A stretch of DNA of 39,206 nt, taken from NCBI GenBank assembly GCA_938010615.1, contig CALLUY010000040.1, positions 1 through 39,206 of the forward strand. Reading direction: 5' to 3'. Shown in pieces: positions 18,637-25,660 of this stretch; the first letter of the stretch is position 1; every line of letters starts with the position of its first letter. The translations under genes were made by a program, and so were the position numbers. Below the pieces are notes generated by a model that saw only the letters and a list, made by a program, of their open reading frames with translations, was not told the DNA's origin and searched no databases. Source of the DNA: an uncultured Pirellulaceae bacterium (GTDB taxonomy: Bacteria > Planctomycetota > Planctomycetia > Pirellulales > Pirellulaceae).

Positions 18637-18673
18637 ACTAGCCCGCGACAATTTGAACCTCGACGATTCACCA

Positions 18674-20068
18674 ATGTTGGCCGAAAATAGAAGCGTAAGG
18701 TTTTCTTTCCCGAACGTGATTCAATTGGTCAAACTAAACACATCTGTTTTCGTCCTAGCCCTCTGCTTGGCTCTTTGCCTGGCTTTCGGCGGTTGCGAGA
18801 AATCTCCGGCGCCGAAGTTTCGACTCAACGAAGTCGAAATATTGAAACAGGAGAAAGCCTCGCTGCCTCAAGACGAACACTTTGCGGAATCGTACGACGA
18901 AGAAATCAACGCGGTTCTTACGTCGCTCTTCGGCACACCAGAATCACCAAAGTTTCCATACTTGGAAGGCGATGAAGATGAGGCCCACGAATTCGTCAAC
19001 TTTGACGATCTGAAGTGGGCGGCCGGACGGGTGCACAGCGATCGTGAAGGCCGGCCAATCAGCGGACTGTATCGCGAACACTGTTCGCATTGCCACGGAA
19101 TAACAGGTGACGGTGCGGGACCAACGGCAGCATTCTTGAATCCGTACCCGCGGGACTTTCGGCTTTCAAAATTCAAATTCAAATCGACTCCGCTGCGGCG
19201 ATCTCCAACCGATCACGACATGGAGATGATTCTGCGAAACGGAATCCCGGGCACTGCAATGCCTTCGTTCCGGACACTACCCGATGACGAAATCAAAGCT
19301 CTGATTCACTACGTCAAATATCTGACGATCCGCGGACAGCTGGAACGCATGTTGATTTCCGAATTGAGTTCGCTCGAAGGTGAACCGTTGATGGACATGA
19401 GCTTCGTTCCTGATGGCGATCTGGTCGCCGCGTTGGTGAAGCTCGAAGCGGATGAAGATTCAGACGATGAAGAAGAGGTCGAACCGACCGAAGAACAGGA
19501 AGCGTTTGAAGAGCAGCTGGACTATGTGTTAAACGAATTGCTACTCGAAGGTCCACTCACGCGTTGGAGCGACCCGGAAGATTCAGTCACAGAAATTCCT
19601 GAAGTTCCAGAGGCGATTGCTGCGAGCCATCCGGATCATGCGGCTTTGGTCGACAAAGGACGTGAAGTCTTCTTCGCGAAAGGAAACTGTGCTCAGTGTC
19701 ACGGGGAGACGGCGATGGGCGATGGACAAACGGCAAGCTACGACGACTGGACCAACGACTGGATTAAATCTGCCGGAGTCGATCCGACCGACAAAAAAAC
19801 TTACAAGGACTTCACTGACGCAGGTGCCCTTAAGCCACGAGCAATCCGTCCGAGAAATCTTCGACTCCCCGTCTATCGTGGTGGCGGTCAGCCTCAAAAC
19901 TTGTATTTGCGGATACTCAATGGCATCGAAGGCACTCCGATGCCAGCCGGAGCGACGCTGACCGAAGAAGAGATTTGGGCTCTGGTCGCGTACGTAAAAT
20001 GGTTACCTTACGAGCACGCTGATAAAGTCAAGCCGAAGATGGTTAATAACAAGGCAATCGCAAGGTAA
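18674..20068 (+). CDS. Dihaem cytochrome c lipoprotein
   Basis: A 464-residue protein from ATG 18674 (a TTG at 18653 is less likely). The N-terminus is hydrophobic with a lipobox AFGGC (Cys41), so it should be anchored to a membrane by lipid. Two class I c-type haem sites are present: CSHCH at 137-141 with the axial Met in GTAMPSF (196), and CAQCH at 339-343 with the Met in GTPMPAG. Between them is an acidic low-complexity linker around residues 258-282. As it lies between the cupredoxin and coxB, it is likely to deliver electrons to the CuA centre of the oxidase. Confidence 0.88.
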   Translation: MLAENRSVRFSFPNVIQLVKLNTSVFVLALCLALCLAFGGCEKSPAPKFRLNEVEILKQEKASLPQDEHFAESYDEEINAVLTSLFGTPESPKFPYLEGDEDEAHEFVNFDDLKWAAGRVHSDREGRPISGLYREHCSHCHGITGDGAGPTAAFLNPYPRDFRLSKFKFKSTPLRRSPTDHDMEMILRNGIPGTAMPSFRTLPDDEIKALIHYVKYLTIRGQLERMLISELSSLEGEPLMDMSFVPDGDLVAALVKLEADEDSDDEEEVEPTEEQEAFEEQLDYVLNELLLEGPLTRWSDPEDSVTEIPEVPEAIAASHPDHAALVDKGREVFFAKGNCAQCHGETAMGDGQTASYDDWTNDWIKSAGVDPTDKKTYKDFTDAGALKPRAIRPRNLRLPVYRGGGQPQNLYLRILNGIEGTPMPAGATLTEEEIWALVAYVKWLPYEHADKVKPKMVNNKAIAR

Positions 20069-20103
20069 CAGGCGTCCGCAAACATTGCGTACATGCACAA
20101 AAC

Positions 20104-20901
20104 ATGAATCGATTCTGGAGCATCCTTTTTTTCTCGGTCCCGATCCTCGCGATCGTCACGTTTTTGCTGACGCAATTCGCGATTTGGCCGTTTGAAGAGG
20201 TTTGGTTCGGTGATTCGTTCTCCGACGCCGGCAAAACCATTGATGGGATCTTCAACGGAATCCATTTGCTTTCTGCGGCGATCCTGTTGGGCACGGTTTT
20301 GACGATTGGCCTCATCATTTGGAAGTTCGACCATCGTCGATACGAGCCGAATTCAAAGGCCACTTACTTTTCGCACAACACGAAACTGGAGCTGATCTGG
20401 ACCGCGATCCCAGCCGTGATTCTGGTCGCGTTGGCATTCGTTCAGATGAACGCTTGGTCCGAAAACAAAATGGATCGGCCAATGACGAACGTCAATGGAA
20501 CGATGGTCGAAACACCGCCAACGGTTTTAGTCAAAGCCAAACAATTCGGTTGGGAGTTCTATTATCCTGGTGCCGATGGAATCCTCGAAACCGAAGACGA
20601 CCTGTACATTGAAAACCTGATGGTGGTTCCTGAACAGACCGACATCGTAATGCAGCTTGAAAGTCGTGACGTCATTCACAGCTTTTTCGTTTCCGACCTG
20701 AGACTAAAGCAGGACGTTGTACCCGGCATGGTTCAGTTTGCCTGGTTCAACGCGAACCGAACCGGAGACTTGCAAATCCTGTGCACAGAACTCTGCGGCT
20801 GGGGCCATTACAAAATGAGCGCCAAACTGCGGATCGTCCCCCAAGCCGAATATGATCAATGGCTCGCCGATCTCCAAAGCGAGTACTATCCCTCCGAGTA
20901 A
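20104..20901 (+). CDS. coxB: Cytochrome c oxidase subunit II (CuA)
   Basis: A 265-residue subunit with two N-terminal membrane helices (about 7-28 and 55-74; a further hydrophobic segment at 98-115) and a periplasmic cupredoxin domain. All CuA ligands are present: His192 (VIHSF), Cys227, Glu229 and Cys231 (CTELC), His235 and Met238 (GHYKM). It accepts electrons from a c-type cytochrome and passes them to haem a in subunit I. It is not fused to a cytochrome c domain. The coxA ATG begins two bases after the coxB stop. Confidence 0.93.
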   Translation: MNRFWSILFFSVPILAIVTFLLTQFAIWPFEEVWFGDSFSDAGKTIDGIFNGIHLLSAAILLGTVLTIGLIIWKFDHRRYEPNSKATYFSHNTKLELIWTAIPAVILVALAFVQMNAWSENKMDRPMTNVNGTMVETPPTVLVKAKQFGWEFYYPGADGILETEDDLYIENLMVVPEQTDIVMQLESRDVIHSFFVSDLRLKQDVVPGMVQFAWFNANRTGDLQILCTELCGWGHYKMSAKLRIVPQAEYDQWLADLQSEYYPSE

Positions 20902-20902
20902 T

Positions 20903-22672
20903 ATGGTTCCCAACACCGCCGACAATCTGTTGACCGCCGAACCGCCACGACGAAACGCGCTGGTCAGGTTTTGGACGACTTACGTTTTTGCGACCGACCA
21001 CAAAATCATCGGCCTGCAGTTTCTGTTTTCGTCGCTGATCTGGTTTGCGATCGGAGGCTTCTTTGCTCTGGCCGTTCGCTGGCAACTGGCTTGGCCTTGG
21101 AGCGACATGCCGATCGTCGGTCCCGCTCTATTCGCTGAATCCGGCGGGCAGATGCCGCCCGAGTTTTACAACATGCTCTTTACGATGCATGCCACGATCA
21201 TGATTTTCTTCGTGGTCATCCCGATCCTGTCTGGAGCGTTTGGAAACTATCTGATTCCGCTGATGATCGGCGCCGAAGACATGGCGTTTCCGCGACTCAA
21301 CATGTTTAGCTATTGGTTTATGTGGCCCGCGTTTGGCTGCATGATCCTGAGCTTCTTCATGCCTGGCTACGGACCGGCAGCAGGATGGACGTCGTATCCA
21401 CCGCTCAGCGTGCTGGCCAGTTCCGCACCAAGCAGCGGAGGAGCACAACAGCTCTGGGTTCTGTCGCTGCTGTTTGTCGGAATTTCGTCGATGATGGGAT
21501 CGATCAACTACATGACAACGATCCTCCAAATGCGTGCCCCCGGAATGAAGATGTTCCGAATGCCGATGACCGTTTGGGCACTCTTCATCACTGCGATCAT
21601 GCAAGCGTTTGCATTGCCAGTCCTCACAGCCGCACTGCTGATGCAGCTTTCAGATCAAACTTTCCAAACCGGTTTTTTCATCCCCGAACAAGCGACCGCG
21701 AACAACTCGACCGCGGCCAGCGGGGGCGGACAAGTGCTCCTGTGGCAGCACCTGTTCTGGTTCTATTCGCATCCTGCGGTCTACATCATGATTCTGCCAG
21801 CGATGGGCATGGTCTCCGATATGCTTTCGTGCTTTTCCCGCAAGCCACTTTTCGGTTATCGCCCCATGGTCTATTCAATCACCGCCATCGCGGGGCTTGG
21901 GTTTGTCGTTTGGGGACACCACATGTTTATCTCGGGCATGAATCGAATTCTGGCTGTGTCCTTTATGGTTTCCACCATGCTGATCGCGCTGCCCAGCGGA
22001 ATCAAAGTATTCAACTGGATCGGAACGATGTGGGGCGGACGACTGCATTTGACGACACCGATGTTGTTTAGCATCGGTTTCGTTTCGATGTTCGTTATTG
22101 GTGGACTTTCCGGAATCGTGATGTCGGCACCACCGGTCGACATCGTCATTCACGACACGTATTACATCGTGGCTCATTTGCATTACGTGCTCTTCGGCAG
22201 CAGTATCTTGGGCGTGTTCGGAGCGATCTACTTCTGGTTCCCGAAAATGTTCGGCCGGATGATGAACGAGACTTTGGGAAAGCTGCACTTTTTGTTGACC
22301 TTCATTTTCCTGAACTGCACATTCTTTCCGATGCACTTCCTTGGACGCATGCCTCGGCGTTATGCGGCCCCTTACGTGAATGAAAGCCTTGAAGGTCTAC
22401 ATGACATCAACGTTTTCATTACTTGGTCTGCGATGCTGATGGGCGCGGCCCAGCTGATATTCGCCATCAACTTCTTCGGCAGCCTGTTTTTCGGAAAGAA
22501 ATCTGGACGCAACCCGTGGCGATCCAATACCCTCGAATGGACAGCTCCCAGCCCTCCGCAGCATGGGAACTTTGAATCGCAACCGTTAGTCTATCGTGGC
22601 CCTTACGAGTACAGTCATCCTGATCGCGAAGATGATTACTGGCCTCAGACGGATCCCGCGACCGAAAAGTAG
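20903..22672 (+). CDS. coxA: Cytochrome c oxidase subunit I, A2 type
   Basis: A 589-residue polytopic membrane protein (about 12 helices) starting at ATG 20903, one base after the coxB stop; a start at 20852 would overlap coxB. Haem and copper ligands are all visible: His96 and His427 (haem a), His425 (haem a3), His290, His339 and His340 (CuB), with Tyr294 as the cross-linked Tyr. In helix VI the sequence is FYSHPAVY. The D-channel glutamate of A1 enzymes (HPEVY) is absent and the Tyr-Ser of A2-type oxidases is present. It reduces oxygen to water and pumps protons. No subunit III gene follows. Confidence 0.93.
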   Translation: MVPNTADNLLTAEPPRRNALVRFWTTYVFATDHKIIGLQFLFSSLIWFAIGGFFALAVRWQLAWPWSDMPIVGPALFAESGGQMPPEFYNMLFTMHATIMIFFVVIPILSGAFGNYLIPLMIGAEDMAFPRLNMFSYWFMWPAFGCMILSFFMPGYGPAAGWTSYPPLSVLASSAPSSGGAQQLWVLSLLFVGISSMMGSINYMTTILQMRAPGMKMFRMPMTVWALFITAIMQAFALPVLTAALLMQLSDQTFQTGFFIPEQATANNSTAASGGGQVLLWQHLFWFYSHPAVYIMILPAMGMVSDMLSCFSRKPLFGYRPMVYSITAIAGLGFVVWGHHMFISGMNRILAVSFMVSTMLIALPSGIKVFNWIGTMWGGRLHLTTPMLFSIGFVSMFVIGGLSGIVMSAPPVDIVIHDTYYIVAHLHYVLFGSSILGVFGAIYFWFPKMFGRMMNETLGKLHFLLTFIFLNCTFFPMHFLGRMPRRYAAPYVNESLEGLHDINVFITWSAMLMGAAQLIFAINFFGSLFFGKKSGRNPWRSNTLEWTAPSPPQHGNFESQPLVYRGPYEYSHPDREDDYWPQTDPATEK

Positions 22673-24792: not shown

Positions 24793-25605
24793 ATGCAAAA
24801 AAAACTTCCGGTCATCCTCGCACTGATTTGCACGTTGTGTTTCACAACGGGCTTGTCCGCGCAAGACGCGACTCAAGAAACCACAGACAAAACGGTTCAG
24901 AAACAGAATCGCAAACAGAAAAAAGGCGACGCGAAGAAAAAGACTCGACTCGCCAAACGAGCCATCAAGGGCATTGAATCCATCGAGTTGACGGAAGATC
25001 AGCAAAAGCAACTTGCTGGATTGATCGATGAGAATTTCGAAACTCTGCTGTCAATGCAAAGCAAAATCGACGGCTTGATCGGTAAAGATGAGCGTAAGAC
25101 GATGAACGCAGCAGTAAAAAAAGCTCGCGGAGAAGGCGTCAAGTGGCCGGAAGCCATGAATATCGCTTACGAAGAAATTGGGCTCTCTGATGAAGACCAA
25201 AAATCTGTAACGGCGTTGAACACCGAACGCAACAAATTGATGGACAAGATCAAGAAAGCAGTCACCGACACTTTCTCTGACGATCAAAAGAAAGCTCTGG
25301 CTGCCTTAAAAGGTAAAGGCAAGGGAAAAGGGAAAGGCAAAGGTAAAGGTAAAGGGAAAAAAGACAAGAAAGCTGATGCTGACACGACTTCGGTTTCAGT
25401 TAGCCTACCCGGCATGACTTGAGGCGGCTGTGCGCGTTCAGTTAGGAACGCTTTGACAGAAGAAGCTGGTTTTTACAATGTGAAGACCAACGTTGGCGAC
25501 AACTCAGCGACGTTTGAAGTGAAGGCTGGCTTTGATTTCGAAGCCAAGCTCAACGAAATTGCAAAAGACTCGAAGCACGTTATGGGATGGTCCAAGAGCG
25601 AATAG
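24793..25605 (+). CDS. Predicted selenoprotein: exported protein with Sec-containing HMA domain
   Basis: A 270-residue protein if the in-frame TGA at 25420-25422 is read as selenocysteine (U210). Residues 1-23 are a signal peptide. Residues 55-172 are helical, with LTEDQQKQL and LSDEDQ words like the LTxxQ motif of Spy/CpxP proteins. Residues 173-190 alternate Gly and Lys. Residues 200-270 form a heavy-metal-associated (HMA) domain: PGMT-U-GGC, then a helix (SVRNALTEEAG), two strands, a second helix and a last strand. The canonical first Cys of GMTCxxC is replaced by Sec; Cys213 is kept. The TAG is followed by a terminator. A SECIS-like hairpin follows the TGA. Without Sec insertion the product would be 209 residues and lose the HMA domain. 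The alternative is a nonsense mutation or sequencing error. Sel genes are not in the window. Confidence 0.8.
25309..25362 (+). repeat. Hexanucleotide repeat encoding Gly-Lys linker
   Basis: About nine imperfect six-base units (GGTAAA, GGCAAG, GGGAAA, GGCAAA) inside the selenoprotein gene give the alternating Gly-Lys run at residues 173-190. The mix of codons suggests it has been kept for its protein sequence, though unit number could vary by slippage. It makes a positively charged flexible linker before the HMA domain. Confidence 0.8.
25428..25459 (+). promoter_or_regulatory. Candidate bacterial SECIS element
   Basis: A hairpin starting 11 bases after the TGA: GCGTTC (25434-25439), loop AGTTAG (25440-25445), GAACGC (25446-25451), a perfect 6-bp stem. 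A lower stem CTGT (25428-25431) with ACAG (25456-25459) extends it across an asymmetric internal loop. The apical loop begins 17 nt after the TGA and has G as its second base followed by T. Bacterial SECIS rules ask for a loop 16-37 nt after the UGA with a G among its first two bases, so it fits. SelB would bind it. Confidence 0.7.
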
Positions 25606-25630: not shown

Positions 25631-25660
25631 GGCGGCAGTGGTTCACTGCCGCCTTTTTTT
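25631..25660 (+). terminator. Strong terminator after selenoprotein gene
   Basis: GGCGGCAGTG (25631-25640), loop GTT, CACTGCCGCC (25644-25653), then seven T residues. A perfect 10-bp stem. It lies 26 bases after the TAG at 25603-25605 and about 210 bases after the TGA, so it marks the end of the longer reading frame. A partial copy of its right arm and T-run (CACTGCCGTCTTTTTT) follows at about 25663-25678. Confidence 0.92.

Follow-up and report, generated by a model that had tools for sequence, protein, structure and literature searches.

The window analysed here is a 39,206-nt stretch of DNA from an uncultured Pirellulaceae bacterium and corresponds to one contig (C40) of a 4.70 Mb assembly that is 84% complete. 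On its forward strand lies a reading frame with a single in-frame TGA at 25420-25422 (residue 210), beyond which 60 codons stay open to a TAG at 25603-25605. Conventional ORF prediction stops at the TGA and yields 209 aa; the read-through product has 270 aa, with the local sequence SLPGMT-Sec-GGCARSV at a heavy-metal-associated (HMA) motif. A sequence-only reading of this DNA had claimed that the TGA stands at the first Cys of the HMA motif, that the frame continues for 60 codons to complete an HMA domain, and that a terminator follows the TAG. Translation of the frame (MTUGGC), Pfam and the structure model described below bear out the position of the TGA, the 60 open codons and the HMA domain, and the claimed terminator corresponds to a terminator-like hairpin. 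The features of the locus are as follows.

24793..25605, + strand: complete frame of the predicted selenoprotein from ATG to TAG, 270 aa including one Sec; relatives carry TGA at the same codon
24793..24864, + strand: N-terminal hydrophobic stretch, probable signal peptide ending near AQ/DA, from the sequence; A23, Q24 and D25 are invariant in nine sequences
24865..25326, + strand: all-helical N-terminal domain, possibly LTXXQ-like (CpxP/Spy type), with LTEDQQ at residues 66-71; model helices and weak profile leads
25327..25383, + strand: Lys/Gly-rich linker, from the sequence; low confidence in the AlphaFold2 model
25384..25602, + strand: HMA domain with motif M-T-Sec-G-G-C; Pfam, AlphaFold2 and PDB fold match to MerP 1osd
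25420..25422, + strand: TGA predicted to encode Sec at the first Cys of the HMA metal site; frame, relatives, SelB co-occurrence and hairpin
25434..25451, + strand: bSECIS-type hairpin GCGTTC-AGTTAG-GAACGC; 6 bp, 6-nt loop, G at loop position 2, loop starting after 17 nt from the TGA
25631..25660, + strand: intrinsic-terminator-like hairpin with T run; 10 pairs at 25631-25653, then the T run

With C standing for Sec, the Pfam HMA model (PF00403) matches residues 203-256 of the window protein at 33.0 bits (cut-off 24.8), and the HMA domain thus spans the TGA. The CxxC metal-ligand pair of this model is altered, the first ligand being UGA (Sec) and the second Cys. The AlphaFold2 model of the protein (mean pLDDT of 86, pTM of 0.55) shows confidently predicted helices in the N-terminal half and an HMA fold arranged as strand-helix-strand-strand-helix over residues 198-259, with block means of 91-97 from residue 201 on and two further strand residues at 267-268. 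When the modelled HMA domain is compared to the PDB, the best fold match is MerP 1osd (E 2.1e-4), which is the sole match at E<=0.001, followed by copper-ATPase metal-binding domains, CopZ and ATX1 (E 0.001-0.02). By sequence profile, the same domain matches ATP7B, CopA, MerP and ATOX1. The motif ATGACNTGANNNNNNTGY occurs once in the window, and 2 of 100 shuffles reach one match.

The N-terminal half is less easily placed. Modelled alone, it gives confident helices, and a fold search against the PDB returned no significant match; its best PDB sequence matches are to CpxP (E 0.02 and 0.06) and then Spy (0.26). As in the CpxP/Spy group, the domain is helical and carries an LTxxQ motif, but the similarity is weak: Pfam LTXXQ (PF07813) matches 5 of the 22 members of A3 (best E 1.9e-5) and Metal_resist (PF13801) matches 2 of them, while the window protein matches neither model. 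We take an LTXXQ-like (CpxP/Spy type) domain as a lead. In the openly licensed literature searched, as far as its accessible text goes, we found no description of a fusion of a CpxP/Spy-type domain to an HMA domain with Sec (Sec-HMA). The hydrophobic N-terminus makes the protein a candidate for export.

Conservation of the TGA and the selenocysteine machinery

A search with the window protein across 60 genomes, the window genome included, gave matches in 28. The full LTXXQ-linker-HMA architecture recurs in eight other loci at 34-39% identity over the length, with TGA at the same codon in all eight; one additional full-length match (L146) has 32% identity and the motif MTUGGC. A profile built from 12 Sec-HMA domains (A1) matched 158 of 241 family genomes at E<=0.001. 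Among the 76 matches listed at 50 bits or more in these genomes, TGA is found in 70, with exactly one TGA in 69 and a TGA plus a TAG in one; the six without a stop have Cys at the site, and none has TAA or TAG alone. One Sec-HMA stretch with both an in-frame TGA and a TAG (G119:C275:24897-25091) has probably decayed. When only translated loci are counted, the first ligand is TGA in 56 of the 60 distinct domains scoring at least 50 and Cys in the other 4.

Broader searches extend the pattern. At the order level (396 genomes), 27 genomes match at E<=1e-10, TGA is present in 34 of the 37 matches listed, and 6 of those genomes come from other families of the order. At the phylum level (392 genomes), 217 match at E<=0.001; those listed are mostly weaker matches that lack a stop. 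Script assignment of motifs in 107 distinct domains at E<=1e-4 gives 60 U..C, 33 C..C and 14 other or unassigned, with U present in 71. The sequence-only reading had proposed checking whether homologues have TGA or a Cys codon at this position, and both are found: all eight full-architecture relatives have TGA, and Cys relatives exist, including a pair within one genus that is near-identical around the site (L141 with TGA, L087 with TGT). A second such pair consists of CUEGC (L029) and CCEGC (L069). We also observe UxxxC spacing (MTUGVGC and the like) in lipoprotein-like, HMA-like proteins of other planctomycetes (L138, L139, L135, L124, L125, L141 and L145), and one lipoprotein-like HMA protein (L143) has two TGAs in the motif HUGFSU (Sec-x3-Sec).

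These data bear on whether the TGA is simply a nonsense mutation or an assembly error in an ordinary CxxC HMA gene, with a dead remnant downstream. TGA is one base from TGC and TGT, and it terminates 5 of the 27 window ORFs in a picked set of at least 200 aa, so that it is also an ordinary stop in the window genome. Decay of the downstream part in homologues would have spoken for such an origin; instead, the TGA codon recurs in dozens of separate assemblies with the downstream domain conserved, no lone TAA or TAG appears among the matches listed above, and a single ORF described below contains four TGAs, all at the same motif position. The earlier argument was that a random nonsense mutation could fall anywhere and need not hit precisely this Cys. 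On the TGA-only pattern across separate genomes we rule out a pseudogene or random nonsense mutation, and we regard error of any such kind as having almost negligible probability.

The sequence-only reading had also proposed a check for selA, selB, selD and tRNA-Sec, and all four are present in the window genome. The tRNA-Sec scores 65.9 bits (cut-off 47) and is called tRNA-SeC with anticodon tca by ARAGORN, SelA scores 552 bits (cut-off 268), and SelB scores 349.8 bits (cut-off 242, TIGR00475) over model positions 2-579 of 581. No match to SelB-wing_2 (PF09106) was found in this genome, where the full-length SelB model is matched. SelD scores 262.6 bits (cut-off 125) inside a 741-aa frame (L045), the N-terminal part of which resembles, by eye, an NADH-dehydrogenase-type flavoprotein.

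Across the family, SelB is above cut-off in 113 of 241 genomes. Among the 50 genomes whose TGA-HMA match reaches 50 bits, 46 have SelB, versus 67 of the 191 others (Fisher p 7.6e-14), and a hand tally of the first 60 genomes gives the TGA form in 17 of 42 genomes with SelB versus 1 of 18 without (p 0.006); both tests ignore kinship. The four TGA-HMA genomes in which SelB was not found above cut-off are G004, G102 and G120, which are 78-84% complete, and G202, which is 98% complete. The last, with a Sec-HMA gene at L114, stands as an exception. Two genomes without SelB (G063 and G064) have the motif CGGC, and two others (G078 and G104) have the Cys form yet contain SelB.

Bacterial SECIS (bSECIS) elements follow published rules: a loop of 3-9 nt, a stem of 4-16 bp, a G in the first two loop positions, a distance of 16-37 nt after the UGA and an MFE of at most -7.5 (as given in the text of PMC13188914). 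The window hairpin agrees with all of these, with a 6-bp stem, a 6-nt loop, a G at position 2 followed by U, a spacing of 17 and -12.6 kcal/mol. Taken alone, it stands only weakly above shuffled sequences: against dinucleotide shuffles its z is -0.84, with 36 of 200 as stable, and against synonymous-codon shuffles, which keep the protein sequence fixed, p is 0.082 in the general test and 0.013 when the position is fixed from the alignment.

The signal is clearer across the family. In the general scan, 20 of 35 non-redundant Sec members have a hairpin beyond synonymous-codon expectation (p<=0.05) versus 3 of 32 Cys members, a control set whose taxonomy is not matched to that of the Sec set (Mann-Whitney p 2.3e-8). 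With a fixed register, the counts are 24 of 35 and 2 of 32, respectively; the general scan is the fairer test because the register had been chosen with the sequences already in view. The loop, stem, G and spacing rules are satisfied by 34 of 35 Sec members and by 18 of 32 Cys members. In the commonest register, pairs 17-29 and 18-28 occur as C-G, T-A and G-C among 22 sequences, which were chosen for at least 4 pairs, so that universal pairing follows from that choice; what counts here is that the type of pair varies. A GT in the loop is weak evidence because GT codes for Val and is common in Cys members (27 of 32). When wider stretches are folded, the signal is weak: mean z for Sec members is -0.62 (nt 0-42), -0.76 (3-48), -1.56 (9-36) and +0.22 (30-66), compared to -0.16, -0.23, -0.36 and -0.25 for the Cys controls over the same stretches.

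That the UGA is read by ordinary read-through or by a code change, for example as Trp, would also account for a stop that is read through in frame. The TGA, however, sits at a Cys position, UGA ends other ORFs of the window, which rules out a TGA=Trp code, the Sec machinery co-occurs with the gene, and most Sec members have a SECIS-type hairpin. We consider decoding as anything other than Sec highly improbable. Judged from sequence comparison, this planctomycete gene very likely reads UGA as Sec at the HMA Cys position. Specifically, SelB and tRNA-Sec would read the UGA at 25420-25422, directed by the hairpin just downstream, and we hold this route of decoding to be nearly certain for the window gene.

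Architectures, hosts and gene neighbourhood

We distinguish four Sec-HMA architectures: the LTXXQ-like domain, linker and HMA-Sec of the window gene, lipoprotein-HMA, YceI-HMA and a four-HMA lipoprotein. Short lipoprotein-like proteins with HMA-Sec, their lipobox assigned by eye, are the commonest form among translated loci. The YceI form is represented by L026 (Pfam YceI, 105.6 bits) and by a second Sec-HMA gene of the window genome itself (L042, C107:44259-44477), in which YceI (111.8 bits) is followed by MSUTGC. The four-domain form is a lipoprotein-like ORF of 450 aa in an uncultured Pirellulaceae bacterium (CAJQQR010000092.1; L183:4533-5885, + strand, also L108 and L063). It encodes four HMA domains, and one of its four in-frame TGAs stands at the site of each. 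Its HMA repeats are mutually 78-86% identical, and a Cys-rich insert lies between the first two. In the text of PMC13188914, which counts 119 selenoprotein families and subfamilies, a small subset in prokaryotes has 2-3 Sec; a lipoprotein with four would exceed this. The window gene is thus a member of a mainly planctomycete family in which Sec-HMA domains are carried on lipoproteins, on YceI proteins and, in one case, on a four-domain lipoprotein with four Sec.

The variety of forms also bears on the possibility that the UGA acts as a selenium-sensitive switch, by which the long LTXXQ-HMA-Sec form would be made when selenium is present, and a functional 209-aa LTXXQ protein ending in a Lys/Gly-rich tail when it is absent. 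Stand-alone LTXXQ-like proteins of relatives (L018, L019, L021, L022 and L028) end in a similar Lys/Gly-rich tail where the UGA product would, but the lipoprotein and four-domain forms leave no obvious useful truncated product. A switch appears distinctly unlikely and, if real, would be compatible with an exported Sec-HMA selenoprotein, the reading that we prefer, rather than exclusive of it.

Beyond the family, we searched 84,980 species in genome_contigs with the DNA pattern P-[G/N-like]-M-T-UGA-GG-x-C, which fixes MTUGGC and so misses other motif forms. The pattern occurs in 52 stretches, 51 of which encode the Sec-HMA domain; the remaining one (L197, Actinopolyspora) does not. Planctomycete titles account for 48 of the 51, with the other three belonging to Sulfobacillus harzensis DSM 109850, another Sulfobacillus and a Lentisphaerales bacterium. 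The two Sulfobacillus loci (L162 and L179, one from the DSM strain) are small CopZ-like Sec-HMA genes with SECIS-type hairpins of 5-6 bp, and SelB is present in both genomes. All seven host genomes of pattern loci that were checked, including these two and the Lentisphaerales bacterium, have SelB above cut-off. The closest proteins among named records have titles of Mariniblastus, Pirellulaceae or Planctomycetota. Searched at the protein level, genome_contigs yielded no relative of the window protein, and tblastn against plasmids had no match.

The window gene adjoins an ABC-2 permease, and downstream of it lie a Gfo/Idh/MocA oxidoreductase, an acyltransferase and LpxC. Genes for a cytochrome c, COX2 and COX1 are found 2 kb upstream (window 18653-22672); apart from these oxidase genes, no metal-handling gene is seen among the annotated neighbours. 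We do not use the cytochrome oxidase genes as a sign of copper delivery. They were not found beside the relatives searched. When the 31 ORFs of the window were searched in 21 relative loci, the Sec-HMA gene itself and a weak oxidoreductase match (26%, L151) were all that was recovered, and the neighbours of the relatives' Sec-HMA genes differ from those in the window. Pfam identifies ten recurrent neighbours as PNPase, ribosomal S15, an SRP54-type GTPase, Gfo/Idh/MocA, amine oxidoreductase, xylose-isomerase-like, DAHP synthase and SBP56 proteins, with one lacking a match. Gfo/Idh/MocA recurs in 9 loci in addition to adjoining the window gene, and its recurrence was not used as evidence because this family is very common in planctomycetes.

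SBP56 (PF05694, 690 bits) lies on the same strand as a lipoprotein Sec-HMA gene and 0.4-1.1 kb downstream of it in 5 of 51 loci: L181 (974-2392, - strand), L169, L180, L186 and L191, all from one close clade. In L180, an opposite-strand ORF lies between the two genes. SBP56 was not found in the other loci with several kb of downstream sequence. The SBP56 of Hyphomicrobium is described as a copper-dependent, probably periplasmic methanethiol oxidase, often with adjoining SCO1/SenC copper-chaperone genes (PMC5739008; see also the account in PMC10277263). As a lead from one clade, the SBP56 neighbour points to a role in copper handling.

Probable role of the Sec-HMA site and relation to known proteins

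The predicted product would comprise an LTXXQ-like helical domain, a flexible basic linker and an HMA domain with a Sec-Gly-Gly-Cys metal site, in which Sec and Cys would capture or hand over a soft metal outside the cytoplasm, with Cu(I) as the first candidate and otherwise Hg(II), Ag(I) or Cd(II). We favour a soft-metal role because Sec should be the stronger soft-metal ligand, which would give Sec-Gly-Gly-Cys a higher affinity for such metals. Capture or hand-over of this kind is the most likely job of the protein and a probable one. Considering decoding, export and function together, we put the probability of an exported Sec-HMA selenoprotein with a soft-metal role at roughly 0.7.

The main competitor accepts Sec insertion and treats Sec-Gly-Gly-Cys as a selenenylsulfide/dithiol redox pair, in an oxidoreductase or in metal reduction, rather than as metal ligands. 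A redox pair had also been suggested in the sequence-only reading. UxxC is a usual redox motif of bacterial selenoproteins, and uncharacterised ones are expected to be mostly redox proteins in the text of PMC13188914; the second Cys is also well kept, with U..C in 60 of the 65 U-first domains by script motif assignment. The fold, however, is that of HMA, whose solved relatives MerP, ATP7A/B, CopZ and ATOX1 are metal carriers, and the UxxxC or UxxxU spacing in some members (L138, L139 and L143) would be unusual for a redox pair. We judge a redox pair unlikely, yet the likeliest of the alternatives to soft-metal binding by this site.

Among known systems, the window protein resembles MerP (TIGR02052, PF00403) in its single HMA domain, its GMTC..C-type site and its best PDB fold match. 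MerP has a Cys-x-x-Cys site and is located in mer operons, whereas the window protein has Sec-x-x-Cys, an additional N-terminal domain and no mer gene among its annotated neighbours. Its match to TIGR02052 covers the motif and, at 23.2 bits, falls far short of the cut-off of 92.55. Two NCBIfam models are also similar. NF041115 (UxxU_metal_bind) describes an HMA-like site with Sec and is weakly matched, at 20.7 bits by the window protein and at 38.8 by a lipoprotein member, its cut-off of 95 being reached by none of the four proteins tested; it is a UxxU family with two Sec (Table 1 of PMC13188914), while the window protein is UxxC. NF045683 (MerT/CopZ fusion-like heavy metal transport selenoprotein) shares a CopZ/HMA-type region within a selenoprotein-named model and weakly matches three of the four proteins tested, below its cut-off of 375, with no listed match for the window protein; unlike NF045683, the Sec-HMA proteins described here have no reported MerT-like part. 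The four Sec-HMA proteins tested all stay below the cut-off of every NCBIfam model listed.

Metagenomic data have also yielded Sec versions of proteins that carry or are related to HMA: in the GOS survey, MerP is listed with 2 sequences, and a cation ATPase with UxxC is listed with 1 (PMC2398784). These cases differ from ours in comprising two and one sequences, and the main text of that survey makes no mention of planctomycetes. Selenoproteins in planctomycetes from Porphyra have been described (PMC4807772), and the main text of that paper mentions neither HMA nor heavy metal. The whole of Table 1 in PMC13188914 has no entry matching the Sec-HMA architecture reported here, and a description of the family was not found in the openly licensed main texts searched on selenoprotein, HMA and planctomycete topics. 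The sequence-only reading had called the protein a new selenoprotein. This holds for the Sec-HMA family described here and not for Sec in an HMA-type site as such, which is already known from NF041115, NF045683 and the MerP and cation ATPase rows in the tabulated results of PMC2398784. What appears to be new is the family of LTXXQ, lipoprotein, YceI and four-domain Sec-HMA proteins, which looks real and is apparently undescribed.

A thioredoxin-like fold with a redox motif is found in the majority of characterised selenoproteins (as summarised in PMC13188914). The Sec-HMA family, with its predicted Sec in a classic metal-carrier site, offers a way to test if selenium serves as a natural metal ligand in small proteins that bind metals. 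A standard annotation pipeline would end such genes at the UGA and miss their HMA domain, as in the 209-aa ORF of the window. The occurrence of a small Sec-HMA gene together with SelB in the named strain Sulfobacillus harzensis DSM 109850 places the question within experimental reach. More broadly, and at a little less than even odds, planctomycetes and a few unrelated bacteria may have evolved selenium-tipped metal traps outside the cytoplasm, mounted on varied exported scaffolds and bearing up to four Sec. Copper enzymes, SBP56 among them, might be supplied or protected by such traps, and the UGA of the LTXXQ form might additionally switch, depending on selenium, between a scaffold-only and a metal-binding product.
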